Of a stretch of 39,262 bases of DNA, positions 198-39,262 are shown in pieces (position 1 is the first letter of the stretch; every line of letters begins with the position of its first letter). Position numbers and translations under genes: made by a program. The DNA is from a virus. The DNA is taken from positions 1 through 39,262 of IMG/VR virus record IMGVR_UViG_3300044712_001720. One strand, written 5' to 3'. The notes beneath the pieces were generated by a model. That model searched no databases. It was not told where the DNA came from and worked only from the letters and a program-made list of their open reading frames with translations.

Positions 198-3100
198 TTA
201 ACGCCTTCCTATCAGGGCTTCTGGATTGCCTGTTACCGTGAGCGCAGCCTCTTTTAATCCGGACACTGGCGCCCCAACAGCAAAACCGAAGCCTTCGCCG
301 GCGCGAATAATCGCTTTTTCCCAGTCTCCCTGGCTCAATGATGTCGCGGCTTGTATGGTTTTTTCAATTGCAGGAAACACGCTGTTTCCAGAATATGAGG
401 TTGTTTTTCCGGTAATGACTTTTTCTGCGGCCGAGGAAACAAGACTTCCCACCAAGGGAACAGAGTCCGTAAACTGAGTCACGCTATAGTAAACAAGCTT
501 TTTAAGCTTTTCCTCATCATCCCCATCGCCAAGGCCTTCACACAACGCACCGAGAGCGATCCCAGCAACGACATAACTCATCACCATTCGCACGGCCGTC
601 CCATATTCTTTATTGCGTACGGCCGTCGGCATGTCATAGCGGACATTGTTATAAATCACATTAAGCGACGTCTGGAATTGCGTAATGAGCTTGAGCGCCT
701 CCCCGCCTCCAGCCTTTCCGTTCCGGAATAATGGAGCCAGGTCAACGGCACGGCCTGACGGCTGAACGAGAACAGTAATATCGTCGGCGTACTTAATCGC
801 CTCAATCTCGATGTCTTCTGCAGATTTGACCTTTTTACGGGATGCGGACATTATCTCGCTTTCGGTTTTTAACATTTCAACGGGCAATGATTCATTTTTT
901 TTGGTAAGCCGTGCATATTCATCTTGATAAGCACTCTCGTTTGCCTTTACCAATTCGGCCGCTTTCTGCCTGTATCCGGCAAGCCAGCCAGGAGCGACGG
1001 ACGCCATATCGGCAAATTCGAGGCCTTTCATACCAATTGTTTGAATCTCGCCCCATGCGGCCGCTGTTTTGTTGATCGAAGCTTTTTGCATGTCCTTAAT
1101 CATGTTTATTACGGGATCCATAGTTCGTTTTTTCATGATCTCGGATCTCGAATTGATGAATTCCATCATGGCTGTCGGGTTTCTGGTAATATCCATAGCG
1201 GCCTTTGCATAACGAACAGGGCTGATAAACGCGAAAAATGGCGCGGGACTTGTGATAAGTTGCTTTAATACGCCGGACGTTTTCCAGCTTAAATACGCGG
1301 CCGCGACACTGCCCCGGATCGATCGAATCAACTTATCGGATCCAGTAACGGTTTTTCCCGCATCGGGATTGGCAATGACGTTTATCTGATCATCAAGATA
1401 TTGAACCGTGCTCGGACCGTAAGCGTTTGAAATTTGCTCACGCAATCCCGAGGCGTCGAGGCTTTTGTATATTCGATTAAGCTCACGCACATATGAGCCG
1501 TATGCAATCAAGTGCTCGGTGTTTTCTACACTCTTCACCCAGGTTGAGTATAATCCGAGCTCTACCGGCCGCTGATGCCCCGGATTGATCTCGATACGCT
1601 TGTTTGACATGCCCTTATCTACACCCGACTGGAAACGCCCGCCGTTCGTATTCAAAAGATCGTCGAGAACGCGGTTCTCGTTCGTCTCGCCTGATGTTCC
1701 GGAACGGTATAGTGGAACGTATTTCTCAACACGAGCGACGGGCTTATTGAATTCGCGAATCATAAACTCGTTCAGCCGATCGTATTGCGCAGCATAATCG
1801 AGCGCTATAGTGTCGGCAAGCTGTCCAAACTTTGAATTATTGGCAATTAATTCCTCAGCCTTTGCTAAAACTTGAGCGAACCGAGGTTCGGCGATATTGG
1901 TGAGTGCTCCTTCCCATTTATCCATATCATAATTGAATTTCTCGGTGGGGCCAAACTCTTCACGCTCTTCTGCGGTCGTCAGAGTTCCATACATAACCGC
2001 CTCACGGCTCATTACGTCCTCATTCGCTTTATACATATAAAGCAGGTCCTGGACCGAATAAGATTGGGTTTTCCCGTCCTGAGTGAAATTTTCAAAATCA
2101 ATCATTTCGAAAAGCTCTTTTACATCAAGTCCGATTTTTTCCATTTCAGACTTAACAAAATTATTACGTTCATCTTTTGAGCGCTCATAAACGTTATAAC
2201 AATCCCTTTCCTGAAATATTAATTTATCGTAATTAATGCCCCGTTTCCCACCGTCAAGGCGCATAGCAACTTCCATCATGCGCATAGCTGCCAATTCTGA
2301 CGATATTATCGTGTGTCGAAAGCTTCCTGCTTGTTTTTTATATTCAAGAGTTCCAGGAAGATTTTTCCGCTCGGGAGGAATGTTTACGCTCCCCATAAGC
2401 TCTCTAGCTATCTCGATGCGTATGCTTTCCGCTGCTTTCCGTTTTGCTTCATAATTAGCCTTAAATACTTCCTTCCCTTTTTTGTGCAGCGCATCAACGA
2501 TAGCGCCGAGTTCATCCATTTCGTCCAATGTCCACTCGGCAAAAGGCCTATTTTTAACACGGGTTAATACTTCCGAAGGCAAAGCTTTTTTTAATATTTC
2601 GGCAAAACCCTCGCTTGTCTCATCGAGCTGAATTTCTTCTTCTCTTTTCTTCTCGAGAACGTCAATCCCCAATTCTTTATAGAGATCCTCTTTGGGTAGA
2701 ATGGCGAGAGCCGCTTCGCGTTCGGTATTTGTCCACTCGTCAAACTTTTTATTTTGGAGAAGAGATAAGACATTTCTGTTCCCTTTAGCGCCCTTAATGG
2801 CTTCGGTAAGATCGTCTCGATATTTACTGTCAGTCTGGTACCGGGTATACACCTCACGTAGATACGGCCCTTCGGTGCCTATCCACTTATTAATACCTTT
2901 CTGTAGGGATGGACCGAACGCTTTCTGTATCGCCATTATCTGGACGCCAGTGTCATAATCGCACGAATTGAACGTAACGCGACGCATTACGGCCTTCACG
3001 GATTGGGTTTTGGCTCTCCGGATCTCCCGAATTGCGGACATTTCGCGCCGGATCGCACCGTTAATACTTTCCTGTTTAAATAGGCCGTCACGACGCTCAA

Positions 3101-6100
3101 GCATGGCGTTAATGGCTCCAATCGCCTCAGCTGATGTTTGCATATCAACCATGCGCTTATACATGGAATTGTAATCCATTCGGGTTTGTTCTACCTCAAG
3201 GCCATACTTTTGAAGGGTTTTGAAGGCCTTCCCGGTTAAACGGGCAATCTTATCGCTTTTCATTCCCTGGGCTACTTTTTCATAGCGCATATTGAGAATA
3301 TCAAGCTCGTCTTTTTTCTTGAGTAAGTTTCTGATCTGATGATCCGTGATACGCCGATCGTCGTCGGCAATCTCTTTTTTGAATGCCTCGTGGGTTTTTT
3401 CACCTTCCCGAAGTTTCTTTTCCAGGCTTGAAAGATACTGCTCGACTTTACTATCCATCGTGAGTTTTCCGGATTTTATTTCCTGTTTTATCTCATCATT
3501 TTGAATATCTGCAGCCAATTCCATTTTTTGCGCCGGCGTAAGGGTATCAACATTGACTTTACGGGATCGAAGTTTTGTTTTTATCTGCTCCCCGGTAGTA
3601 TCTGCGAGACTTACTGCCCATTCGCTCTGATCCATAATGTCCGCGTATAAACTCCGATAATCCCGCGAAGCTGCTCGAATAAGAGAAAGAAGACTTTGCC
3701 TCATGCGATCAGATAGCTCTCGGCCAGTCGAAATACGCGCTGCCTGGCTCGTCCAATATCCATGACGCATTTCAACGTTTATTCTGCTTTGTAGCCGTTT
3801 TATTTCGTTGAATCGGTCAAGTTCTTCCTGATCCGCGGGCTGATATTTCTGGTCAAAATGGGTAATTTCATAAATTGCCTCAAGGAATTCTTCCAGTTTC
3901 CCTGGCTTTGCAATTTCAACCATCCATAATGCGTCGAGAGCGTCCGGGCTACCGGTGACAATTGATTTTCGCGCGAGCTCTTCTTCGATCTCAAACGTGT
4001 TATACGATGGTTTCTGTTCAATATTCTTTGCCTGTTTCCAAAATGTTTCATACCAGTCCTGATCCGCGTCCTCGGGAATCGTTTCAATACCCCCGAGCAT
4101 GTCCCTGGTGTCCGGATCCTCGCAGAATTCCATAAACATACGCCAATCGCTGAATTGTGCAGCGTCGTCGGCGAGCTCTTGGTTGATGGTTTGGAAGAGG
4201 ATTGAATTATCGGATGAATAACTAACATTTTCATTAACTTCTACTGTTTTTATTTTACGACCTTGATCCAATCTGTTTCCAGCTACTCCGTTATCATTGC
4301 CATTTACATCACCAATTAAATAATCTTGAATATATAGGCCATTATTTATTGCTGTTTTTACTGTTTCTACAAGTTTTGAGTCTTGTTTTTTACTACACAC
4401 AAAAGCAAGATGGGCACCATATGATAATGCACTTTTAGAAAGTTTTTTATTTGCCTTATTAGTGGCCTTTTCTGATTCCAATGAATCTTCAAAAAACGAT
4501 CTCTCAAAATATTCGATTGCACATACCTTGCTGGCGGCATTAACAAACGCCACACCTATATAATTTTCATCATCTTCTACATACTCAGCCGCTTGACGTA
4601 GCGTTCCCGGCCCGGTAACTTTGATTGATTTTAATTCTTTTTTCGTTAAGCGAATTTTTTCAGTCGGATCAATTTTATTTTGAAAGCCTTCTATTTTTTC
4701 TTGTGAAAATGAAGACTCTCCTTTTGCATATAGCCCAAATTTGCCATGATCTAAAATAATATGCCCAGCAAATACGTCGCCAAACGTCATTTCTATTCTT
4801 TCAGTTACCGAAATATCTTGATAGGATGGTTCGGTTTGACCCGACGGATGATTGTGAACAACTATTATTTTTTGATTACTTTGACGGGCTTCTGTTTCTG
4901 CCCAAGATAAAAAAAGGCCAATATCTTGATTTGATGGCGCAACACCTGTTTTACCAGGCATGCGAGAAGAAACAGCTACATGTTTCTCGATTGCGCCGGT
5001 GTCTGCGTTTACATATATATATCGGAATGTTTCAAAGCTACGGTTTCGATAAACAGAAAGGGTTTCGGAAAGCTGACTCCAGCCGGTAGCTGTAAGCTTA
5101 CCGTTCTGGATATCGACAGTCTTTCCAATTATGTGGGATGTTTTATATTTTTTGAGGTCTTTGTAGACACTCCATACTCGGGGCTTGGCTCGTCCGGATC
5201 CAATCCCTTTCTCAATATTTGCAAGTCCTTTTTCGACAATTTTTTCGGTTTCTTCGTATTTTTCTTCGGAGACTGCATCATAACTTCCCTCCTTGTCTAA
5301 TATAAGTATATCGGCAAATTGTGAATTATCTAAAGCTTTTTCGAAATATTTTACATTTCTTTCAAACATCATTGCGTCCGGATTATTCTCCCAAAACTTA
5401 GCTCCGGCTTCGTCAATAATCTTCTGTGTTGCCTCGGTACGGGATACCCATTTAGCGGGCTGTGATTCAACTTTTACCGTCTCATCAGTCTGGGATGCTT
5501 CGAAGGCGTTCTCCTGATCTGCCTCAGTCGTCACGGCTGCTTTCTCTTCAACCGCTTGGGTTTTCTTCACTGCCGGCGTAATTTGTTGCGATCGGGCAAC
5601 TGCGGCCAATGGTGTTTGTCCTGCAACCAACTGGTCATATACCCGGCGAATTTCCGGGCTCACCTCAACGCGATTGGATAATGCCTGGTATATTCTCTGT
5701 AGGAATTCCGCTGCTTTGCGATAAAGATTCTCGAGCGCAGTAGTTGGGGCTTTCCCTTCCCGTAAATAATCTTCAAACCCGACGGCAAACTTTTCTTCCT
5801 GGTCGCGTGTCCACTTACCATCAGTAACCCCAAAAGCTGTTTCAGCCTCGGTGAGTAGGTCGCCAGTCATTTGAGAGCGCCAAACATGAGAAACTTCATG
5901 TACGTAGGTTGAAAAATCTGACTTTTCAGTCACATAAATGAGCGCTTTTGCCTGCCTGGAAAGGTTATCAACGGGGTATCCTACACCTCCCTTGATACCG
6001 TCAGCCTGAATTCCTTCTTTCTGTGCAGCATCAATCACATTTTGACCAACCGGTGCAAATATCTGATCATGGAATGTGTTACCAATATAGGTTTCAAGAT

Positions 6101-8096
6101 CAAGGCCTTTAGTCGCTGCTCCCGTTTCTAGTAAAGCAACGGCAACGGCGCGTTCTGTCGGATCCAGTTTTGGTAAATAGGTTTTTATCTGAGCATCAAG
6201 TTTTATTCTGCCCCGTATATTTGCCTGCTCGCTTTCATTTTCAAAATATTGCAGGCCGGCCTTTGCTCCCCTGGGATTTTCTGCAATAAGCTCAGCCTTA
6301 ATTCCCTGCAGCGTCCTTCTCTGAGGCTCCCATATAATTTCCTTCCCGGGAAATTGAGCGGAAAAATCATTGACAAATTCTTTCAGGATCCCTTTATACT
6401 GACTTCCCTGAATACGCACATCGTCGATCGTGACGGTATTTTTAGTCTCGTCGAGCGTATAGTAAATATGGCCGTAATCATTGTAATTGGTTTCCTCGTT
6501 CGGATTTCCAACGATGAATTCGCCGCTTTCGGATCCGTCTGCGTTTTGTTTTTTATTGTCAAATTGGGTATAGAGTCGATCTTCAACTCTTTGGACCTCT
6601 CCGCGCGGTGTGGTCTGAACTGCATCGTCCTGGGTAACCTCCGCGTCTCCACTAATATACTCTGCAATATCTTCGGTTTCAGCTTTTACCGCTTCCTCTC
6701 GTTTTTGTGCAGCGGCTTCCCATATTTTAGACTGTGCCTCTGTGCGTTTTTCGTCGGTCATACCTTCGAAAATATTGAATTCGGCTGTGTCCTTGATAAA
6801 CGCTTCTTTTGATGCTGTATTATCTGCGTATTCGGCAATCTGGCGAACCTCTTTAGCATCGCCTCGAATAGAAATTCCTGCTGCTGGGATACCCAAGAAG
6901 AGCGAAGCTGCAATACCTCCCTCGATATTTTTCCCAAGTTCTTTGAGAACGCCCGACATATCATCCTGTGGACCGGTGACGCCCTCGGTACCCCGCGCAC
7001 GCTCAATTGCCGTACCAATCGATTTTGTCGCAACCTCGGCGACGTACTGAATTCCTTCTTCCGATCCCTCAACCGCTGCCGTTCCAAAATAGGACAAAGC
7101 AGCCTTGAGCGCTCGTTTATTAAACAGAAAATCCTTTAAAGCTCCCTTGGTGACTTTATTGACAATACCCACACCCATGTATTCAGCAAGGCCAGCCGAT
7201 TCAATTGCTGTCTGCATGAGGCCTGAAATGCCAGAAAGAGCAAACGCGGCTTTGTCGTTTACTCCGGCCTTTATCATCTCGTCATATTGATTTCCCTGGA
7301 TAATCTTATGCATGACCTGAGCATTGTAGAGCGGAGACATGAGAAGCCATTCCAATTGAGCTATATTCTTTTCAATTGAAATTTCCCCTTGGGCGACATG
7401 GTCAAAGTTTTCCATGTCGGGAATCATAGTGATATCGCTTATGTATCCGGTAATGTCTTTCTGTGTTGGAACGGTTAAGCCCGCGGCCATATACTGCGCT
7501 GAGGACATAATTGCCGGAAGTGCGACGCCTCCAGTCCATGAAAGAATATCTTTAATAAACGGTATAGGAAGGTGAGATTCCCAGAAACCCGGGCCTGATT
7601 GCTTTGCCTCAAGATCCGCGATTTTCTTGGCAAGTTCAGGCGATTTATCATACCGCTGATCCATCCGCAGTACGCCAAGCTGATTCGCGATCATGCCGTC
7701 ATTCCAGGTATCGACAAGCATTTTTCCAAACGTTTTTTCCGGTAAAACCTTGCCATACATCGCGGTCGAGTAATTATCTATATTTGCGTACACCTCTTCC
7801 AAAGGCAATCCCTCAAGGTCCGCTATATATTTTGATGCTTGTAGCCGAGATAACTCACCAATCGGATCGTCTGATTTATCAACCAACTCCTGGAACGCGG
7901 GTAAAGATTGAGAATAATCGGTAAATATGTCCGATTTTGCAGGAAGAGTTTTATCAGGATTCGATACTTTTTCATTGGTAACGTCCGGCACGTCAAATGC
8001 CTGTGCATTTTTTTGTTGTAACTCCGGAATAATGGAAGTTTCTGAAACCGGGAACGCTTGTTTATTTTTTTCTTCAATCTGCGCTAATACTTCCAT
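198..8096 (-). CDS. Giant polyvalent internal virion (ejection) protein with metallopeptidase and RadC-like JAMM domains
   Basis: At 2632 residues this is the largest gene, following the gp14- and gp15-like genes where podoviruses encode their gp16-type ejection protein. Residues about 250-410 are hydrophobic and Ala/Gly-rich, as in large polyvalent phage proteins. HEVSH at H733-H737 is an HEXXH zinc-peptidase motif, with an acidic EEKFAVGFEDYL segment downstream as possible third ligand. Residues about 1015-1130 form a RadC-like JAB/MPN domain: E1022, then HNHPSG with H1081, H1083, S1091 and D1094, which exactly fits HxHx7SxxD. About 1500-1800 is charged and probably coiled coil. The last 450 residues resemble the conserved C-terminal region of polyvalent proteins, with membrane-active stretches. 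Inference: it is packaged in the head, ejected into the cell, and may modify host proteins or open the envelope. It starts at ATG directly after the TAA of the upstream gene. Confidence 0.85.
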   Translation of the reverse strand: MEVLAQIEEKNKQAFPVSETSIIPELQQKNAQAFDVPDVTNEKVSNPDKTLPAKSDIFTDYSQSLPAFQELVDKSDDPIGELSRLQASKYIADLEGLPLEEVYANIDNYSTAMYGKVLPEKTFGKMLVDTWNDGMIANQLGVLRMDQRYDKSPELAKKIADLEAKQSGPGFWESHLPIPFIKDILSWTGGVALPAIMSSAQYMAAGLTVPTQKDITGYISDITMIPDMENFDHVAQGEISIEKNIAQLEWLLMSPLYNAQVMHKIIQGNQYDEMIKAGVNDKAAFALSGISGLMQTAIESAGLAEYMGVGIVNKVTKGALKDFLFNKRALKAALSYFGTAAVEGSEEGIQYVAEVATKSIGTAIERARGTEGVTGPQDDMSGVLKELGKNIEGGIAASLFLGIPAAGISIRGDAKEVRQIAEYADNTASKEAFIKDTAEFNIFEGMTDEKRTEAQSKIWEAAAQKREEAVKAETEDIAEYISGDAEVTQDDAVQTTPRGEVQRVEDRLYTQFDNKKQNADGSESGEFIVGNPNEETNYNDYGHIYYTLDETKNTVTIDDVRIQGSQYKGILKEFVNDFSAQFPGKEIIWEPQRRTLQGIKAELIAENPRGAKAGLQYFENESEQANIRGRIKLDAQIKTYLPKLDPTERAVAVALLETGAATKGLDLETYIGNTFHDQIFAPVGQNVIDAAQKEGIQADGIKGGVGYPVDNLSRQAKALIYVTEKSDFSTYVHEVSHVWRSQMTGDLLTEAETAFGVTDGKWTRDQEEKFAVGFEDYLREGKAPTTALENLYRKAAEFLQRIYQALSNRVEVSPEIRRVYDQLVAGQTPLAAVARSQQITPAVKKTQAVEEKAAVTTEADQENAFEASQTDETVKVESQPAKWVSRTEATQKIIDEAGAKFWENNPDAMMFERNVKYFEKALDNSQFADILILDKEGSYDAVSEEKYEETEKIVEKGLANIEKGIGSGRAKPRVWSVYKDLKKYKTSHIIGKTVDIQNGKLTATGWSQLSETLSVYRNRSFETFRYIYVNADTGAIEKHVAVSSRMPGKTGVAPSNQDIGLFLSWAETEARQSNQKIIVVHNHPSGQTEPSYQDISVTERIEMTFGDVFAGHIILDHGKFGLYAKGESSFSQEKIEGFQNKIDPTEKIRLTKKELKSIKVTGPGTLRQAAEYVEDDENYIGVAFVNAASKVCAIEYFERSFFEDSLESEKATNKANKKLSKSALSYGAHLAFVCSKKQDSKLVETVKTAINNGLYIQDYLIGDVNGNDNGVAGNRLDQGRKIKTVEVNENVSYSSDNSILFQTINQELADDAAQFSDWRMFMEFCEDPDTRDMLGGIETIPEDADQDWYETFWKQAKNIEQKPSYNTFEIEEELARKSIVTGSPDALDALWMVEIAKPGKLEEFLEAIYEITHFDQKYQPADQEELDRFNEIKRLQSRINVEMRHGYWTSQAARISTGRELSDRMRQSLLSLIRAASRDYRSLYADIMDQSEWAVSLADTTGEQIKTKLRSRKVNVDTLTPAQKMELAADIQNDEIKQEIKSGKLTMDSKVEQYLSSLEKKLREGEKTHEAFKKEIADDDRRITDHQIRNLLKKKDELDILNMRYEKVAQGMKSDKIARLTGKAFKTLQKYGLEVEQTRMDYNSMYKRMVDMQTSAEAIGAINAMLERRDGLFKQESINGAIRREMSAIREIRRAKTQSVKAVMRRVTFNSCDYDTGVQIMAIQKAFGPSLQKGINKWIGTEGPYLREVYTRYQTDSKYRDDLTEAIKGAKGNRNVLSLLQNKKFDEWTNTEREAALAILPKEDLYKELGIDVLEKKREEEIQLDETSEGFAEILKKALPSEVLTRVKNRPFAEWTLDEMDELGAIVDALHKKGKEVFKANYEAKRKAAESIRIEIARELMGSVNIPPERKNLPGTLEYKKQAGSFRHTIISSELAAMRMMEVAMRLDGGKRGINYDKLIFQERDCYNVYERSKDERNNFVKSEMEKIGLDVKELFEMIDFENFTQDGKTQSYSVQDLLYMYKANEDVMSREAVMYGTLTTAEEREEFGPTEKFNYDMDKWEGALTNIAEPRFAQVLAKAEELIANNSKFGQLADTIALDYAAQYDRLNEFMIREFNKPVARVEKYVPLYRSGTSGETNENRVLDDLLNTNGGRFQSGVDKGMSNKRIEINPGHQRPVELGLYSTWVKSVENTEHLIAYGSYVRELNRIYKSLDASGLREQISNAYGPSTVQYLDDQINVIANPDAGKTVTGSDKLIRSIRGSVAAAYLSWKTSGVLKQLITSPAPFFAFISPVRYAKAAMDITRNPTAMMEFINSRSEIMKKRTMDPVINMIKDMQKASINKTAAAWGEIQTIGMKGLEFADMASVAPGWLAGYRQKAAELVKANESAYQDEYARLTKKNESLPVEMLKTESEIMSASRKKVKSAEDIEIEAIKYADDITVLVQPSGRAVDLAPLFRNGKAGGGEALKLITQFQTSLNVIYNNVRYDMPTAVRNKEYGTAVRMVMSYVVAGIALGALCEGLGDGDDEEKLKKLVYYSVTQFTDSVPLVGSLVSSAAEKVITGKTTSYSGNSVFPAIEKTIQAATSLSQGDWEKAIIRAGEGFGFAVGAPVSGLKEAALTVTGNPEALIGRR

Positions 8097-11112: not shown

Positions 11113-13272
11113 TTATCCGTCTATCTCTGCCATTACGCCGAGAATAGTAACCGGTAATGGTTGATTTTGAGTAAAAGAAAGCCATCCATCTGACTCCCAT
11201 CCTTCACTGTTTTGAACTTCTTTATCCCCGGTGAAAGGGCCTGTTACAGTTATTGCTTCTGGCGATTTTGTTCCGGTTGTAAAAGAAAAACTTCGATAAA
11301 GCCTAAGAACACTTTTTATAAACCTTTTTCCGAATCCTTGAGACAAACCGATTTCACTGTTTGAAGTGATACGCATTGTTCTTGCTGAGCCAATAAAAGG
11401 AATTCCTAAATACAATGTAGTTCCGGTCACACCCGCGGGTACGGTAACTGATCCATCAGCGCCAACGGTAACTGAATACGCTACATTATCTGAAACAATA
11501 TAACAGGCAGTTGAGGCAAGCCAAGTTAATCCAGTAATAGTTGAAGCAGTCCAGGCTACCGTATATGGACCGATTGTTTTTGCGACTGTTTTGGTAAGTA
11601 TTACGCCCGAATCAACATGATAACCAGAAAACATTTGAGAAAGTTTTTCTATAAAACGAGAAGATCCGCGCTTAACCGTCATATAAATATCATCCCCTGT
11701 AGCGCCCGGAACAATTGCAACCGATTCAACTGCATCACCAATTATATGCCTTGACCATGCGAGTAAATCATATTGTTTGCTGTACGAAAGAAGAGCAATA
11801 TATCCATCAGAAGTAACAAACACCATCTGCGATTCTGGATTTTGCACATAATCAAAATCAACAATCCCCGATCCAAGAATATGATCCGCAAAGTAAGTAA
11901 GGTCTGGAGATTTGTATGATTCATTGTCAGTTTGATAGAAATACTCGCGTACTTTTTTAAGATCGCCCTGTACAAAAATAACTGCACTATCGTAAAGCAG
12001 ACCCTGTTTTGCAGCAGATCCTATTCTAGTTTGAAGTTGAGCCATAATATTTATTGCTGTTATGTTGTTTGGTAATGTCCACTCATCAGATACAGTGCCT
12101 ATAATCAATACTTTTGAGGATGCCATGAAATTTATATAATTATTCTGGTCTGAATTTAGTTCTATCTCAATCGCTGAACCGTCTCCAATAACATCCGTTC
12201 GTGTCGTTATATTTTCATACACTGGTATCGTTGTATCCGGCCACCAGGAAGCAGCATAATACTGTGTCCCTGCAACTAAATTCTCAGCTGATGCAACTGT
12301 TATAGAATTTACTGTCATACTTTCAATAATTGCTGTTGCCGGAACTTGAGGAACATCATTTATAACCGGTCCTGTGATATATTGGCCAACCGAGGCAAGC
12401 TCCCTGGGATCCACAAGTAAACCTGATATAGTCTTTCCTGATGCGGTACCCTTAAAATAAAAGATTGCCGGATCCTTAAGCTGTCTATTAGAGAATACCG
12501 ACACATCAAATAGTTGAAAATTCCCATATTCGAATGGCCTGCTTGCCCATATCTTTTGTGGCTCTCTAAACGATGAGGCAAACCATAAACGTCCATTGAA
12601 ATATGAGCAACATCCTGGATAATTAGTCGATGACCGAAACGGTGCAGTCTGTAAAAATCTCCAGGTTACTGTTCCGTCAACGATCGCTTGTCCGGTACCG
12701 GTCGGGGCCGTTGTACCGGATGTTCCTGCGATCAGGCTATAATAATAATTATCACCTGAATACACGATTATATCTGCTGCATACGCATGAGATGCCGCCC
12801 AAGCAGCACCATCAAGTGAAAAATCCCCAAAAGTGAACGTATCTCCAGTAGTGTAAATCAAGGCTTTTATAGGAATTGACCGATGTGTGATGATTAAAGT
12901 TTTATCAAATTGACAGAACTGCAATTCTGCGAGCATTGCTGTCGTATAAGTTGTTACCGTTTCAACTGGATTTCCTCCGGACGTTATGGGAAGTCCATTT
13001 TTCCAGTAACGAATATAATTATTTCCGAATTCAAGCACATACGAAAGGGATGAATTAATTATCATCGGATATAAATACGTTTTATTCGCCGCTGTTTTTA
13101 CCGCGCCTATTAATTCAGAGCCTGGGCGCAAAGTGATCCCGCCTTGCGCGAATGGAATGAAATTTTCTAATTTTGACATGCCTTGCCCATACACCTGGGA
13201 ATCAAATCGGCAAGACCATTTTTCCGAAAGTTCTCCTTTCAAAAAATTGGTAATCGGAATTCGCTGGTTCAT
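11113..13272 (-). CDS. Tail nozzle / stabilisation protein (T7 gp12-like, tail tubular protein B)
   Basis: About 719 residues, beta-rich. The N terminus (NFLKGELSEKW...FIPFAQGGITLRPG) is typical of podoviral tail nozzle proteins, which begin with a fold binding the adaptor ring. Residues about 155-215 carry an inserted module ending IVDGTVTWRFL that is shared with the next two upstream genes. I chose ATG at 13272-13270 because it overlaps the previous stop as ATGA. An in-frame ATG at 13287 would add five residues but has no obvious ribosome site. The protein should form the tube through which DNA and ejection proteins pass. Confidence 0.75.
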   Translation of the reverse strand: MNQRIPITNFLKGELSEKWSCRFDSQVYGQGMSKLENFIPFAQGGITLRPGSELIGAVKTAANKTYLYPMIINSSLSYVLEFGNNYIRYWKNGLPITSGGNPVETVTTYTTAMLAELQFCQFDKTLIITHRSIPIKALIYTTGDTFTFGDFSLDGAAWAASHAYAADIIVYSGDNYYYSLIAGTSGTTAPTGTGQAIVDGTVTWRFLQTAPFRSSTNYPGCCSYFNGRLWFASSFREPQKIWASRPFEYGNFQLFDVSVFSNRQLKDPAIFYFKGTASGKTISGLLVDPRELASVGQYITGPVINDVPQVPATAIIESMTVNSITVASAENLVAGTQYYAASWWPDTTIPVYENITTRTDVIGDGSAIEIELNSDQNNYINFMASSKVLIIGTVSDEWTLPNNITAINIMAQLQTRIGSAAKQGLLYDSAVIFVQGDLKKVREYFYQTDNESYKSPDLTYFADHILGSGIVDFDYVQNPESQMVFVTSDGYIALLSYSKQYDLLAWSRHIIGDAVESVAIVPGATGDDIYMTVKRGSSRFIEKLSQMFSGYHVDSGVILTKTVAKTIGPYTVAWTASTITGLTWLASTACYIVSDNVAYSVTVGADGSVTVPAGVTGTTLYLGIPFIGSARTMRITSNSEIGLSQGFGKRFIKSVLRLYRSFSFTTGTKSPEAITVTGPFTGDKEVQNSEGWESDGWLSFTQNQPLPVTILGVMAEIDG

Positions 13273-13982
13273 GGAGTATCCGTCCATAATCGAGATGAAG
13301 TGGGGTCTTCTTTTTTCTCCGCTGCTGATTCCCCGCGAGCCGCTCGAAGCGCAAGTTGGTATTCCTGAATAAGCGTCGGTACCGCTGCCGCTTGTCCAAA
13401 AGTTGGTGCCATATATTCCGCTAGTTTTAATACAATGGCTTCTTGTAATAGTGAATCAAGAACATCCACGTTAAATGGACGACGGAGTACTTTAGCTATG
13501 GCGTTTTCTTCATCGGTGTAAATGAAACGGCCGTTCACGCTGTAGGGGGTTGAACCAACGGAGATAATCTTGATCGTTCCTTCCGGGTAAATGTAGCAAT
13601 ATTCATATAGTGAATAATTTTCTGGATATTCCTCCAGTGCATCCCATGTTGCTGTGCCGTCAGTAATACCCATCGCATACGATGCCGGTCCTCCAGTTGC
13701 CGCGCTGGTACCGGACGCGGTACAACGAAAAAGAATACCTTCATTGGTTCTAAGATCACCCGATACATACGCGGTTGATCCCTCCCAAATAATATCTATG
13801 TCTTCAACCAATGCAACTTGCTTGATTAAACATGCCCAATCATAGGACCTGAGTACGCTGTCGAGCGCACCAGGGTATAGAAGATTTGCTGTCTCGACAG
13901 ATTTCCCTGGATCCGTTAAGTTTGGAATTGCTTCAACTGATATTTTACTGAAAGCACGATTAATAATATCAAGTTTTGTCAT
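13269..13982 (-). CDS. Tail adaptor protein 2 (T7 gp11-like, tail tubular protein A)
   Basis: A 237-residue protein beginning MTKLDIINRAFSKI. Its helical opening (about 1-60: LDIINRAF...LYPGALDSVLRSYDWA) is the hallmark of the gp11/gp4-type head-tail adaptor that forms a ring under the portal. The fold is interrupted at about residues 64-116 by a beta-rich module (GTSAATGG...ITDGTATW), then resumes with helices to about residue 215. It is a diverged paralogue of the preceding gene, with the insertion at the same place. The stop overlaps the nozzle start as ATGA. Confidence 0.7.
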   Translation of the reverse strand: MTKLDIINRAFSKISVEAIPNLTDPGKSVETANLLYPGALDSVLRSYDWACLIKQVALVEDIDIIWEGSTAYVSGDLRTNEGILFRCTASGTSAATGGPASYAMGITDGTATWDALEEYPENYSLYEYCYIYPEGTIKIISVGSTPYSVNGRFIYTDEENAIAKVLRRPFNVDVLDSLLQEAIVLKLAEYMAPTFGQAAAVPTLIQEYQLALRAARGESAAEKKEDPTSSRLWTDTP

Positions 13983-13984
13983 AA

Positions 13985-14746
13985 CTATTCCCTCACACTA
14001 TCTTGTCTGAGCGCTATCTGCGCGTTTGTATACAACTGCAGAATATCTATCAAATCCTCACGATCCTCGGCCGCGGCTATTTGCCTTGCAATGCTTAATG
14101 TAGTGGCGAATTCCTGATATAAAAGCTGCATAAGTTGAAGATTGGAAGTCATAATAAAACAGATTTTTGAAGCCAACCGGGAAACGACTCCCTCGACCAT
14201 AACAGCGTCCATTTCATCAACTGTTATCAGTTTGGCATATCGTAAAACTGGATTTTGAACATTGGTGTATAAAAACGGTCCTTCAATTCTATAGAGATTC
14301 TTCTTTGCTCCATCGATGTCCAATACGCGAACGCAATCAGAAGGTACGATAAAGGCATAAGTCCATCCTGAAAGATTGACAAACGTACTCGAACAGAGAA
14401 AGCGCCATACAACCGTACCGTCAGTAATGTTTCCGGTTGTTCCCGTTGGACCACCCGACGCTGCGCTCGTTCCCGCAATAGTCGATACATATAAATTCGC
14501 GCCGTTCTTCCTGGTAACACCTACGCCATATGCGGTAAAAGCTACCCAGTCAGTGGCCTCGGCTACTGGTACTGGCCTCGCCCGAACGACCGAACAGTTC
14601 CAGGGAAATATTCTGATAATTTCTAATATTGTATTTGCGAGATACGCATTACATACCCGCATAGCCTTATTATCCGTCGTGAGGTCGGCAAGTTTCATAT
14701 CCCCGAGTCTTAATAAAGCCATGTTACATACGTCAAGATCAGTCAT
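13985..14746 (-). CDS. Tail adaptor protein 1 (T7 gp11-like, tail tubular protein A)
   Basis: 253 residues, beginning MTDLDVCNMALLRLGDMKLA, a classic gp11-like opening followed by NAYLANTILEIIRIFPWNCS. The inserted module spans about residues 67-118 (GTSAASGGPTG...NITDGTVVWRF). The C-terminal helices (about 165-250) complete the adaptor fold. Two adjacent adaptor paralogues suggest either two stacked rings or division of labour between head-side and nozzle-side contacts. The upstream GAGGGGAAAT sequence is a plausible ribosome site. The gene follows a strong hairpin at 14767-14793. Confidence 0.7.
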   Translation of the reverse strand: MTDLDVCNMALLRLGDMKLADLTTDNKAMRVCNAYLANTILEIIRIFPWNCSVVRARPVPVAEATDWVAFTAYGVGVTRKNGANLYVSTIAGTSAASGGPTGTTGNITDGTVVWRFLCSSTFVNLSGWTYAFIVPSDCVRVLDIDGAKKNLYRIEGPFLYTNVQNPVLRYAKLITVDEMDAVMVEGVVSRLASKICFIMTSNLQLMQLLYQEFATTLSIARQIAAAEDREDLIDILQLYTNAQIALRQDSVRE

Positions 14747-17669: not shown

Positions 17670-19343
17670 TTATTTATTTGCTATTGCCTCCAACGGGCTT
17701 CCCGTTACTACCTTCTGATTTAACTTATCTGAATTTTGCGCAATAAGTTTTTGTTGCTCCAATTGTATAGCCTCGGCTTGTTGCTGTTGTTGTACTTGCG
17801 CTCTGTTCTGCCTGATTTTATTTACATCAGGCTGCTCGCGAATGATTGATTGGGCAAGTCCATAACCATTCATCGCATTGCGGGTAAGTTCATCCATGTC
17901 GATGTTGTCCAATATCTCAGGACTGACCTGTGATATCGGCATAAAGAATTCAAGAGCCTGAGAAATACCAGTTGTCTGAAAATATTTTTTCCTGATCTGC
18001 TCAAGAAAACCTGAATACACAATCTCAATTTTTCCACCAGCTTCAAGAAGTTCCGGAGGCGGTGGGGGCAACACGCCTCGACGATTTAATATTTTGTACG
18101 TTCTCTCGATAACCGGAGAAAGAATTTCTTGCTCAAACCTTCCAACAACACCACCGAGAACTGCAGCGCCTTCGCCTTTTCGCTCGATAACTTCCCGTGC
18201 AGTCATGTTTTTATCCTGCTGAGATACCATCAAGAAAAAATCAACATTGAAATGCCAACCAATCGTTTTCTGTAGCGACGCTTCAACGTCTTTATTGATT
18301 GGATAATTAGCTCCAACCTGTAAAGCTTGGGGTGGTTCTTGATTAGGACCAACGTAATTCATGCCGTGCGGTAAAATACGCTCATCACCTTTCATACCAT
18401 CATCGATTGCCCAGGGAGGATCACTTGTCAGCTGAGCAAGATTTAATCTGGTTCGCGCTACCTGGTTGAGCATTTTCACGTCCGTTAGTGCGTCCATACC
18501 AGGACCAACGCCGTACACTTCATCGGAATTCTTAATCCATCGCCATACGAAATAAGGCATCTCTTGATATCCTTTTTCGCTAACAAGATGATTATTTTTA
18601 ATATCGATGTAATACGATGCCCAGGGCATGTCCTTTGATAATGGACTGTTTTGCATTCGATCGCCTCGCGGTGTTACAATGTGAAGCATGATTACATATT
18701 TGTATGGTTTTAATTTTGCTTCCTCAAGCACAGTAGGATGCAATCCATCACCAAAACTTTGCTTTGCCTGCTTGTAGGTAATGCGAAATTTTCGGTAAAC
18801 AGTATCTACTACACCAAAGTTGTCTTCTTCAACCCATATTTCTTTTGGATGCCGAGCCGAGAAAAAGATTTTTTTCTTTCCAATGTTTTCCTCATTGTAA
18901 AGCGTTGCCGTTCCTGTTGCTCCGCAGTCGGGCACGAGCTCACTAAGAGACTCATAGAAGTTTGAGCTTGATAATTCCGCTGTTATTAACTGCTGAATCT
19001 GTTCAAGCCAATCGGCTACACCTGGAATAGCCATCTTAAGTTGCTCGACCTTAAGAGAAAAATATTGCTCAGTACGTGACACCATATACCCGACAAAACT
19101 TCTCGAAAGTAGTTGCAGGGCATACAGTGCATAGGTGTTAAATAATTTCACACGCGTTTTCTTTTCCGGTTCTTCCTCAAGATCCCAAGAAGATCGCCGC
19201 GGGAGAATAAAATCTGTTATCTCTTTCCATTCAGGTTCATAGGCTTCCCGACGTTCCTTCATTGTTTCGAATTTAGCCAGGAGGTCCTTAACCAACTCTT
19301 TATTTCTTTCGGTGTTTTGGGCCGCCCCAGCTGATTCGCTCAT
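17670..19343 (-). CDS. Portal (head-to-tail connecting) protein
   Basis: 557 residues of the podoviral head-to-tail connector family. Visible features are EYEPEWKEITDFILPRRSS-like text at about 35-60, FNTYALYALQLLSRSFVGYM (about 70-90), and a C-terminal Gln-rich helix (about 510-540, QVQQQQQAEAIQLEQQK) typical of the barrel end of portals. It forms the dodecameric channel through which terminase packs DNA. It overlaps the preceding gene by four bases (ATGA). Confidence 0.9.
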   Translation of the reverse strand: MSESAGAAQNTERNKELVKDLLAKFETMKERREAYEPEWKEITDFILPRRSSWDLEEEPEKKTRVKLFNTYALYALQLLSRSFVGYMVSRTEQYFSLKVEQLKMAIPGVADWLEQIQQLITAELSSSNFYESLSELVPDCGATGTATLYNEENIGKKKIFFSARHPKEIWVEEDNFGVVDTVYRKFRITYKQAKQSFGDGLHPTVLEEAKLKPYKYVIMLHIVTPRGDRMQNSPLSKDMPWASYYIDIKNNHLVSEKGYQEMPYFVWRWIKNSDEVYGVGPGMDALTDVKMLNQVARTRLNLAQLTSDPPWAIDDGMKGDERILPHGMNYVGPNQEPPQALQVGANYPINKDVEASLQKTIGWHFNVDFFLMVSQQDKNMTAREVIERKGEGAAVLGGVVGRFEQEILSPVIERTYKILNRRGVLPPPPPELLEAGGKIEIVYSGFLEQIRKKYFQTTGISQALEFFMPISQVSPEILDNIDMDELTRNAMNGYGLAQSIIREQPDVNKIRQNRAQVQQQQQAEAIQLEQQKLIAQNSDKLNQKVVTGSPLEAIANK

Positions 19344-35783: not shown

Positions 35784-38700
35784 TTAATCGTCTGTTGGGT
35801 AAGAAAATGTTATCATCACATCTGCTCCATTTGAAAAATTTGCATGAGTCATTTGGGCGCCTCCCTGCAAATTGAGATATAAATTGTTTGAATTTGGTAT
35901 AGTATAGAAGGTTGCAGGGCCGGATAATGAAACACCCGCTCCTGTATAGATACCGCCAGTACAATAAGAACTTGAAATATTTGCTGTTTTAAAAGGTAAT
36001 GCTGAGATTACAGCATTACCTATAGAGGTACCTTTTTGATTGAGATAATAATAAATTGATAGAAAGCATCTGTTTTTTGTCTTCTCATAATAAATTACTC
36101 TATCATAATAAGTCATTCCACCTGCATAACCTCCAAATGTCAAACCACATCGAGTGTCCGCAGTAGAGGTTGCAGCAACAGAAAAATATTCACTTATAAC
36201 ATTCCCAACACTGTCTACATAGACAATAAAATTTAAACTTGGTGATTTTATAGTATATGCCGTGCTTGCAATCGGAACCACCACATTCTCTTTCCCGCTC
36301 ACCCCCGTCGTAATGGTCAGTGTAAACGGCCCGCCACTCGACGCGACGAGATATTCTTTCGGAATAATGCAGGTGTACACTGCCTCGCCTTCTGGGATGG
36401 TGTATACCGTGTTTGCGGATACAGTTCCGGTAAGTGGCCGAATAATTTCACAGAACTGAACGGATTTAAGCCTAAGTTTTCCATTATTTAACTCAAACAC
36501 TTCGGTACCAGCAGAATCCTGTACAGAAATAGCCTTTTGCTGTCCCTGAGAGAATTCCCAAAGATCATCGAGGATGTGTTCGTTTTCAGTTACAAATTGG
36601 AAAGTGATATCGTATCCTGTGAGCTCATACGTATAGTTTGCATATAGCGGGAGGTCGGCACTCCAGGCTCCGGTTATTTCGCGCCAGGCAAATAGTTGGG
36701 GGGTAAATAAATACGCTTTTTTATCTCCTGCTCCTGCAAGAAAGCCGCTATCTCCATATGTAAATCCATAAATTCCAGGGGGTAAAGTTTGTCTTTTTGT
36801 CCAAACATATTCATCTACAGATGTAAATATATCTCCATTGGCACAACCTATAATTAATAGAGAATCGCTTTTATCATATTCAAATGCAACCGATCCAATA
36901 TTTTGTCTTTGAGTCCACGTAATTCCATCAGGTGATGTATATAAAGTATTGACTGTAGCTATATGAAAAAGTGTTTTCCCAAAAAAAAGCCTATATTTAG
37001 TTATGGTAAAAACTTGTTCTGTCCAAGTAAGTGCATCTGAAGATGTATATATTTTACTCGCAACACTAACAACAAAAACATTATTACCAAATGCCACAAA
37101 AACTTGTGAACTTCCCGCTAGACTAAGTCTTTCTGTAAAAGTAATTAAATTAGTAGATGTATAAATTTTATTATTATTTAATCCAAACACATAGATTGCT
37201 TTTTCGTAAATTATTGATGAGCATTGCACTCCAAAGTTATGTTTTTCAGTCCAATATATACCATCTGAAGAGGTATATATTTTATAATCAGGATATGATG
37301 TAGCTAATATAAATATATTATTCTGAAATACTAAACAACTCGAATAAGACGGGAAAGTCGCTCGTTCTGTCCAGGTGATTGCATCAGGGGATGTATAAAC
37401 TTTATTATCATCACAAGACACTACATATATGGAATTTCCAAAAGCGGCGTCCGAGACATACTCATAAAATTCATGGGCTTCCGTCCATTCCTGTGGTGCA
37501 GATTTTATTTTTACCTCAAAATCTCCCTCTACCGCACCATCCGTTAAAATGTTTAAATCATTAACGCCAGTGCCTGTGAATGTTACTGCAGCAACCCCTA
37601 CATTTTCTTTAATTTTTAATCGAGTATTTTGTTGACTACTTGAGCCAATATTTAATGAAGTCGATATCTTTGTTGATCCATCTGATGGATCAACATCTAA
37701 ATCGGGATCCGCTGAGGAAGTAGACTTAACTTGAAAACGTCCAACAATCACAGAAGCAATAGCCGTAACAAAAAAGCTTTGTAATTTTATTGCAAGTTTC
37801 CATAAACCATTTTCTCGCCAGCGCCTGAAAAATGATGTGTCTTCCGGAGCGTCTCCTGATCCGTCTGATCCAAGCAAGAAGGTCCCTTCCGGATCAGGAT
37901 CCCCGGTTCCTGGACTCATAATAAGCTTATAATCTGGCGTATCACCATTGATAGTTCCCAGTTTGGCATTAATAGCCGCAAGATTCTCGGCAAGCAGAGT
38001 ATGCGCAACAACAGCCCCCTCGGCTATTTGCGCAGCGCCTATTGCCTGGGCAACAATATCAACAGTTCCTGTTGGTCTTGCGAGAACAGAAACACCGGCC
38101 GACCAGGTGCCGAGTAGTGTCCTGGTGAGGTTAGTCGAGAGCGGAACGATTGAAACGCCTCGGACACGATAATAAAATTTTGTGTCTTTTGGAGTGCTAA
38201 CTGTTTGGTCTTTTAACGGTAATGTTTGTGAAATCTGTTCAACAGGAGTAAAATAAACGCCGGTTGTTCCATCAGTATAATTATTTTCATTTGCCCGAGC
38301 ATCGAGAGTTATATCAGGCTTAAGCCATTCGTCCTCGCTTGGTAAAGTATCTTTTTTGAAAACCTGTACGTCATAGCCGAATTTGCCATATTGATTCCCA
38401 TTATTCCAGTTAATTACCGCTTCGCGTCCATTACAATACGGAACTAGTACCGGAACAGGAGGAATCCAGGTACCGTAATTTGTTACATCAACGATTTTTC
38501 CGGTAGCTGATGGGCCATAAGTTTCTGCCTGATATCCGTAAATATTTTCTGGCCTTACACGGAAACGATATTTACTTAAGGGTATCGGCCCCGGAACGGT
38601 TACAGTGTTTTTTTCAGGATATCCATCAACAGCACGATCAAAAATATACGTGTAGGTTGGGTTTCCGGTACTGACAAAACGCGTCCAGGTATCTCCCTCG

Positions 38701-39262
38701 TCGTATGATACATCAATCAAATGCCGTGCAATTTTATTTTTTAAACTCACTAACGGCCATGCCCAGGTGATAACGATAGAATCTCTCGTCGCAACCGGGA
38801 ATATATCGACTATACTATCAGGCTTCGCAACCGACGGATCCACTGGCGCGCGTAATCCTCCGAGCGCAACAGCTTCGCGGGCAACAAAGTATTCCTTGAA
38901 AACGAGCCGCACCTCGTCCCCAATCCCTTCCCATTCTGATTTCACGGTCATATCATCAAATAACGGTTTTGGATTAGTCCCGCCAATTCCATAGAGATAT
39001 AAAAGCAAGGCCGCATATTTGGCCATATACGCAATTTCTTCTGAACTCTCTTCCGTCGCTTGCGCCAAAACGGTTGAATATTCTGCCGTGATAATATCCC
39101 ATTCACGTTTTAATTCGCGCTTTTCTTCGGGCATAATCACATTATCCGAGGCCATATCGGTAATCCGCTGCAAAAGTTGCAAAGTATCTCCGATAGCCAT
39201 TTGTGACTTCCCGGTCTGAGCTTCGAGCAAAGCAAGAACCTGAGCCGTTTGCGGTGAATTTA
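35784..39262 (-). CDS. Tail fibre / receptor-binding protein with beta-propeller (continues at 1-197)
   Basis: Complete protein of 1182 residues across the circle junction. Numbering from ATG 197: helical start (1-140); two fibronectin-III-like domains (about 155-300 and 305-430, ending YYRVRGVS); a helical trimer-stalk-like stretch (IAEGAVVAHTLLAENLAAIN, about 440-460); then a propeller from about 615 to 870. Six Asp-box-like repeats KxYTSxDxxxWTxR, the first at residue 644 and the sixth at 834, are spaced about 38 residues, with a weaker seventh after them. The last 160 residues (FGGYAGGMTYYDRV...SALPFKT) resemble C-terminal jelly-roll tips of fibres. It should bind the host surface. TAA at 35784 precedes the lysis cassette. 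Confidence 0.8.
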   Translation of the reverse strand, partial: NSPQTAQVLALLEAQTGKSQMAIGDTLQLLQRITDMASDNVIMPEEKRELKREWDIITAEYSTVLAQATEESSEEIAYMAKYAALLLYLYGIGGTNPKPLFDDMTVKSEWEGIGDEVRLVFKEYFVAREAVALGGLRAPVDPSVAKPDSIVDIFPVATRDSIVITWAWPLVSLKNKIARHLIDVSYDEGDTWTRFVSTGNPTYTYIFDRAVDGYPEKNTVTVPGPIPLSKYRFRVRPENIYGYQAETYGPSATGKIVDVTNYGTWIPPVPVLVPYCNGREAVINWNNGNQYGKFGYDVQVFKKDTLPSEDEWLKPDITLDARANENNYTDGTTGVYFTPVEQISQTLPLKDQTVSTPKDTKFYYRVRGVSIVPLSTNLTRTLLGTWSAGVSVLARPTGTVDIVAQAIGAAQIAEGAVVAHTLLAENLAAINAKLGTINGDTPDYKLIMSPGTGDPDPEGTFLLGSDGSGDAPEDTSFFRRWRENGLWKLAIKLQSFFVTAIASVIVGRFQVKSTSSADPDLDVDPSDGSTKISTSLNIGSSSQQNTRLKIKENVGVAAVTFTGTGVNDLNILTDGAVEGDFEVKIKSAPQEWTEAHEFYEYVSDAAFGNSIYVVSCDDNKVYTSPDAITWTERATFPSYSSCLVFQNNIFILATSYPDYKIYTSSDGIYWTEKHNFGVQCSSIIYEKAIYVFGLNNNKIYTSTNLITFTERLSLAGSSQVFVAFGNNVFVVSVASKIYTSSDALTWTEQVFTITKYRLFFGKTLFHIATVNTLYTSPDGITWTQRQNIGSVAFEYDKSDSLLIIGCANGDIFTSVDEYVWTKRQTLPPGIYGFTYGDSGFLAGAGDKKAYLFTPQLFAWREITGAWSADLPLYANYTYELTGYDITFQFVTENEHILDDLWEFSQGQQKAISVQDSAGTEVFELNNGKLRLKSVQFCEIIRPLTGTVSANTVYTIPEGEAVYTCIIPKEYLVASSGGPFTLTITTGVSGKENVVVPIASTAYTIKSPSLNFIVYVDSVGNVISEYFSVAATSTADTRCGLTFGGYAGGMTYYDRVIYYEKTKNRCFLSIYYYLNQKGTSIGNAVISALPFKTANISSSYCTGGIYTGAGVSLSGPATFYTIPNSNNLYLNLQGGAQMTHANFSNGADVMITFSYPTDD
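39136..39262. repeat. Terminal direct repeat, copy 2 (circle-closing overlap)
   Basis: Exact second copy of bases 1-127. Joining 39262 to base 128 restores the 5' end of the tail-fibre gene, so the window should be read as a circle. Confidence 0.95.

Follow-up and report, generated by a model that had tools for sequence, protein, structure and literature searches.

Does a genuine RadC-type JAMM metal site lie within a giant phage protein, and what might such an enzyme do for an infecting phage? The stretch of viral DNA analysed here (the window; 39,262 nucleotides, positions 1 to 39,262 of IMG/VR record IMGVR_UViG_3300044712_001720) encodes a portal, capsid protein, terminase, tail proteins, integrase, repressor and endolysin, and is a temperate podovirus-like genome in which a giant open reading frame (ORF) adjoins the tail genes on their downstream side. 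The features that bear on the first part of the question are as follows, in window coordinates.

198..8096, (-) strand: giant protein of phage polyvalent type, 2632 aa (ORF; colinear orthologues in Treponemataceae prophages and viral contigs; effector domains of its siblings)
11113..13287, (-) strand: tail protein upstream of the giant ORF, phrog_376 (E 6.6e-112)
17670..19343, (-) strand: portal or head-tail connector, phrog_332 (E 2.5e-124)
4707..5099, (-) strand: predicted catalytic RadC-type JAB/JAMM domain, about residues 1000-1130 (Pfam RadC, AlphaFold2 model, Foldseek)
5031..5033, (-) strand: E1022, the JAMM glutamate (sequence; conservation)
4815..4856, (-) strand: zinc-site motif H1081-x-H1083-x7-S1091-x2-D1094 (pattern search; conservation in relatives)
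4290..4643, (-) strand: second, degenerate JAB unit, residues 1152-1269, with no JAMM residues (hhalign; strand and helix order of the AlphaFold2 model)

The original prediction placed an exact HxHx7SxxD motif at residues 1081-1094, with a RadC-like glutamate upstream at 1022. We find that the pattern H.H.{7}S..D occurs once in the 2632-aa protein, at precisely those residues (HNHPSGQTEPSYQD), and that residue 1022 is a glutamate. Across 75 modules (74 homologues and the window), H1081, N1082, H1083, P1084 and D1094 never vary, and E1022 and S1091 each reach 99% conservation. Pfam RadC (PF04002) matches the giant protein at 35 bits (cut-off 22.1; E 1.5e-8) and phrog_10276 (DNA repair protein) at E 6e-8; two NCBIfam RadC models do so at E 4e-9 and 8e-9, with scores under their full-length cut-offs because the alignment covers the core alone. 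Each of the 65 sequences in our module alignment, A2, has a Pfam RadC match at E up to 0.1, and a profile of A2 matches the RadC structure 2qlc at E 5.7e-15. At the level of sequence, these results confirm a genuine RadC-type JAMM site, beyond chance, made up of residues 1081-1094 and E1022; with its predicted zinc site complete, the proposed RadC-like JAMM domain within the giant protein holds. The conserved module is wider than earlier described, at about residues 970-1262. It shares the JAMM residues, the HNHPSG signature and the predicted fold of the RadC family (PF04002; 2qlc), but differs in being fused into a giant phage protein and followed by a degenerate second JAB.

An AlphaFold2 model of residues 960-1300, which carries no zinc, contains two successive alpha/beta units (pLDDT 81.9, pTM 0.77). 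Its best PDB match by Foldseek is RadC 2qlc (E 1.6e-5, target TM about 0.7), followed at E about 1e-3 or weaker by BubCD of a bacterial ubiquitin-like system (E 1e-3), PfJAMM1 and other JAMM proteins; the comparison with RadC and JAMM deubiquitinases proposed at the outset thus returns a predicted RadC fold. Matches among viral models include a "RadC-like JAB domain containing protein" of uncultured Caudovirales phages, and automatic annotation therefore already flags such domains. The two halves of A2 align with each other in hhalign (probability 94.6%, E 6.5e-8). The Glu and HxH zinc ligands are missing from the second unit; from alignment and model together, the module is a tandem pair in which a predicted active JAB precedes a degenerate one. 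Active and inactive MPN proteins pair in Rpn11-Rpn8, CSN5-CSN6 and BRCC36-KIAA0157. By analogy, the window module likewise would join an active JAMM unit to a degenerate partner, but those pairs are formed by separate chains, whereas both units here share one.

What kind of protein carries this module? Sibling giant ORFs pair RadC with ART-PolyVal, ddrB-ParB or LPD23, the polyvalent-protein domain set, so that the family shows several unrelated effector domains per chain, and the gene is sited among phage structural genes. In 50 sampled viral records holding giant RadC ORFs, a podovirus portal of the phrog_332 type is found in at least 20, and the phrog_376 tail protein in 9. The polyvalent proteins of Iyer et al. 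2017 have the same giant multidomain plan beside late genes, a zincin motif and interchangeable effectors, of which ART-PolyVal, ddrB-ParB, PBECR and LPD domains recur in the siblings of the window protein (PMC5512222). That survey (PMC5512222) lists RadC only in polyvalent proteins of conjugative elements, whereas here it is found in a phage protein; with the present data, RadC as a polyvalent-protein payload extends to phages. The giant protein fits an injected phage polyvalent protein and probably enters the cell with the phage DNA. Its earlier designation as a virion ejection protein is a putative one, based on gene order and homology. Judged from relatives only, the host would be a member of the Treponemataceae.

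The arrangement of the chain is best seen by comparison with orthologues, and involves four further features.

5567..6269, (-) strand: zincin-like metallopeptidase region, about residues 610-843, with HEVSH at 733-737 and E768 (motif conservation; podovirus relatives)
4191..5294, (-) strand: exchangeable payload cassette with RadC/JAMM, about residues 935-1302, left edge approximate (slot between scaffolds; other payloads in orthologues)
4191..4202, (-) strand: seam motif ILFQ, residues 1299-1302, at the cassette end directly before the C-terminal scaffold (motif comparison)
201..4190, (-) strand: conserved C-terminal scaffold, residues 1303-2632 (orthologues 31-36% identical across about 1300 aa; phrog_9880)

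Orthologues in four Treponemataceae prophages (L187-L190), each with a tail gene upstream of the giant gene as in the window, align to window residues of about 54-932 and 1278-2632 at 28-39% identity, the two parts of the L190 alignment starting at residues 268 and 1348. The slot between these parts holds RadC in the window, and ART-PolyVal (ADP-ribosyltransferase), LPD23, the PBECR nucleases PBECR5 and PBECR1, LPD3 and MuF_C in differing sets in the prophages. A scan with the zincin region yields about a dozen more viral contigs with the same protein plan, and the RadC cassette of one of these, L211, is 40% identical to that of the window. These alignments show the putative RadC/JAMM enzyme to be one of several interchangeable payloads between a fixed N-terminal scaffold, which bears the zincin motif, and a fixed C-terminal one. 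A PDB profile search with the C-terminal scaffold gives no match, its sole identity being phrog_9880 (function unknown). The zincin region has BPP-1 Bbp10 and further podovirus proteins as relatives, and its HExxH...E residues, the pattern expected of the Zincin MPTase motif, are invariant in 28 sequences; a PDB profile search did not recover the zincin fold, and an AlphaFold2 model of the region (pLDDT 66.9) has no Foldseek match in the PDB at E 0.001. Processing by the MPTase (zincin) and injection have been proposed for polyvalent proteins by Iyer et al. 2017 (PMC5512222).

The ILFQ that ends the window cassette belongs to a recurring pattern. In 14 proteins of this plan, [ILMV][LIY][FY]Q is found 49 times in the slots, where shuffles predict 1.57, and once in the scaffolds, where they predict 4.01; since the pattern was picked post hoc from these sequences and the proteins are related, the counts represent a strong regularity rather than a p-value, and the 49 seams are not independent events. 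The motif closes nearly every cassette of the lineage, including the unrelated folds LPD23, PBECR5, LPD3 and RadC, and also abuts the start of the C-terminal scaffold, as it does in the window protein; the RadC cassette of L211 directly follows VLFQ, and that of locus L018 lies between LLFQ and ILYQ. The Leu, Phe and Gln codons of the seams vary synonymously, which points to selection at the protein level, and from this we infer a processing site. The window protein has a single seam: near residue 932, at the left cassette edge, it has ADILIL in place of the DMLFQ that follows the zincin region in orthologues, which would fit a left seam that has decayed or that went missing in a swap. The terms "LFQ" and "linker" are absent from the text of Iyer et al. 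2017 (PMC5512222).

Two other accounts of the seams have to be weighed. They may be recombination joints, or C-terminal strands intrinsic to the folds, with the payload acting while tethered, and the repeated ending of ART cassettes in NPNILFQ, seen in many of them and perhaps structural in origin, is in keeping with this. So is the pair of prophages L187 and L188, whose giant proteins are about 97-98% identical and differ in their last cassettes (PBECR5 versus a second ART-like domain), a difference that falls exactly at a seam and is possibly a recent swap. The synonymous codon variation and the sharing of one motif by unrelated folds argue the other way, and we regard this account as possible but doubtful. 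The RadC domain, as a predicted metallohydrolase in cis with the seam, might itself be the maturation protease for the ILFQ seams of its own polyprotein, but orthologues without a RadC domain bear 2-6 seams, more than the window protein, and giant RadC proteins of other phages are not enriched in them, which makes this role highly improbable. We also considered LFQ seams as a universal feature of giant RadC proteins and rejected it: in 64 other ORFs, 25 are observed and 23.4 expected, which limits the seam model to this lineage.

Relatives of the module extend well beyond phages. Scans of viral contigs with the whole protein or a single sequence found none, and alignment queries alone recovered some. 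In tblastn searches of plasmids, residues 960-1300 match Treponema succinifaciens pTRESU01 (E 2e-32), T. bryantii pTB1 (E 5e-30) and a conjugative Nitrosomonas plasmid (E 9e-8), with homology that spans about 233 residues and thus reaches beyond the motif. The pTRESU01 and pTB1 modules are 35% and 30% identical to that of the window over this length and have the same double-JAB layout, but their partners are SNF2/methylase or a separate 836-aa protein, whereas the partner in the window is a phage scaffold. An alignment query of IMG/VR gives 234 relatives, of which 80 were kept; at most of these loci the module lies within ORFs of about 2000-6000 aa, and the giant-ORF modules, including that of a Treponema metagenome-assembled genome (MAG) locus, L086 (Treponemataceae), keep the JAMM residues at 99-100%. 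In a tree, the window cassette shares a clade (support 99/97) with 17 Treponemataceae modules that carry a conjugative label and 3 loci with a phage label, labels given from gene context that was seen in part for several loci, and the polyvalent RadC modules stand apart from sampled chromosomal RadC (support 100/100). This shows kinship, and phages and conjugative elements would appear to draw RadC modules from a shared pool. Separately, the minor capsid protein of Streptococcus phage MissF (OL799250.1; L005:3897-5471) ends in a JAB-like domain, IHNHPSGYPPSLSDF; it is also a phage head-module protein with a JAB, here C-terminal, that bears HNHPSG, but it is only 524 aa long and the match is weak (tblastn E 0.06).

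As to the chemistry of the domain, the literature examined demonstrates no substrate for any member of the RadC family. We know of no biochemical demonstration that RadC processes nucleic acids or nucleotides. Such an activity, protecting or preparing incoming DNA, is nonetheless the view of RadC argued by Iyer et al. 2017 (PMC5512222), and copies of the module in conjugative elements adjoin SNF2/methylase, ArdC and partition genes, which favours that view; against it, a DALI search in a 2025 review places RadC-like folds closest to ubiquitin-like-protein metalloproteases and finds them unlike nucleases (PMC11981726). We consider a nucleic-acid or nucleotide substrate a tentative option, on the unlikely side. 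The original prediction raised, as speculation, the removal of ubiquitin-like tags by a counter-defence deubiquitinase-like enzyme, one that cleaves the ubiquitin-like modifiers which bacterial systems attach to phage or host proteins, and we find no specific support for it. The JAMM site is complete, the weaker fold matches past RadC are BubCD (E 1e-3) and PfJAMM1, and the module is present in two kinds of invading element; however, the nearest family is RadC rather than the Cap3/BubD/AfJAMM type, and Iyer et al. 2017 argue that RadC JABs have no groove to take a ubiquitin tail (PMC5512222), whereas the 2025 review puts RadC-like folds nearest to ubiquitin-like-protein metalloproteases (PMC11981726). 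A search of 274 Treponemataceae genomes, the likely host family, for the bacterial ubiquitin-like E2 family PF14461 of such conjugation systems gave no match, and its control search was equally silent. A deubiquitinase-like role strikes us as improbable.

The reading that we prefer, with a probability of roughly 0.5, is that of an injected, processed polyvalent protein that carries the RadC JAMM hydrolase as an exchangeable cassette, freed at the seam and acting early on a host target. The giant protein would be packaged in or with the podovirus head and enter the cell together with the DNA, the chain would be cut after the ILFQ seam at the cassette end, most simply by the resident zincin, and the freed RadC module would act in the cytoplasm as infection begins, its target in the host being one that incoming conjugative plasmids meet too. 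RadC is optional, being found in 2 proteins of the examined lineage with the window counted; this speaks for an accessory function inside the host cell rather than one in virion maturation. An early-entry role, in counter-defence or takeover, is plausible because the same module sits in polyvalent proteins of conjugative elements. With slightly less confidence than an even bet would warrant, we extend this to the lineage: a temperate podovirus group with relatives in Treponemataceae genomes may encode its injected effectors as a polyprotein, composed of a two-part scaffold and variable cassettes that each end in an (I/L)L(F/Y)Q cleavage signal; its payloads could then be traded with other phages and with conjugative elements, and each be released as a protein of its own. 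RadC is found in most bacteria and has no known substrate, and its occurrence among both phage and conjugative payloads hints at a target of importance to incoming DNA of any kind. For proteins whose processing had only been assumed, the recurring seam supplies a specific cutting rule that can be put to the test, and with its help cassette borders can be read from sequence data.

Elsewhere in the window, two neighbouring genes at 13269-14746 each match the phrog_394 tail family, as though a tail-tube gene had been duplicated in tandem. At 35784-39230, a 1148-aa protein with a weak tail-protein match contains repeated DUF6242 segments (5 stretches), and is perhaps a beta-propeller receptor-binding part.
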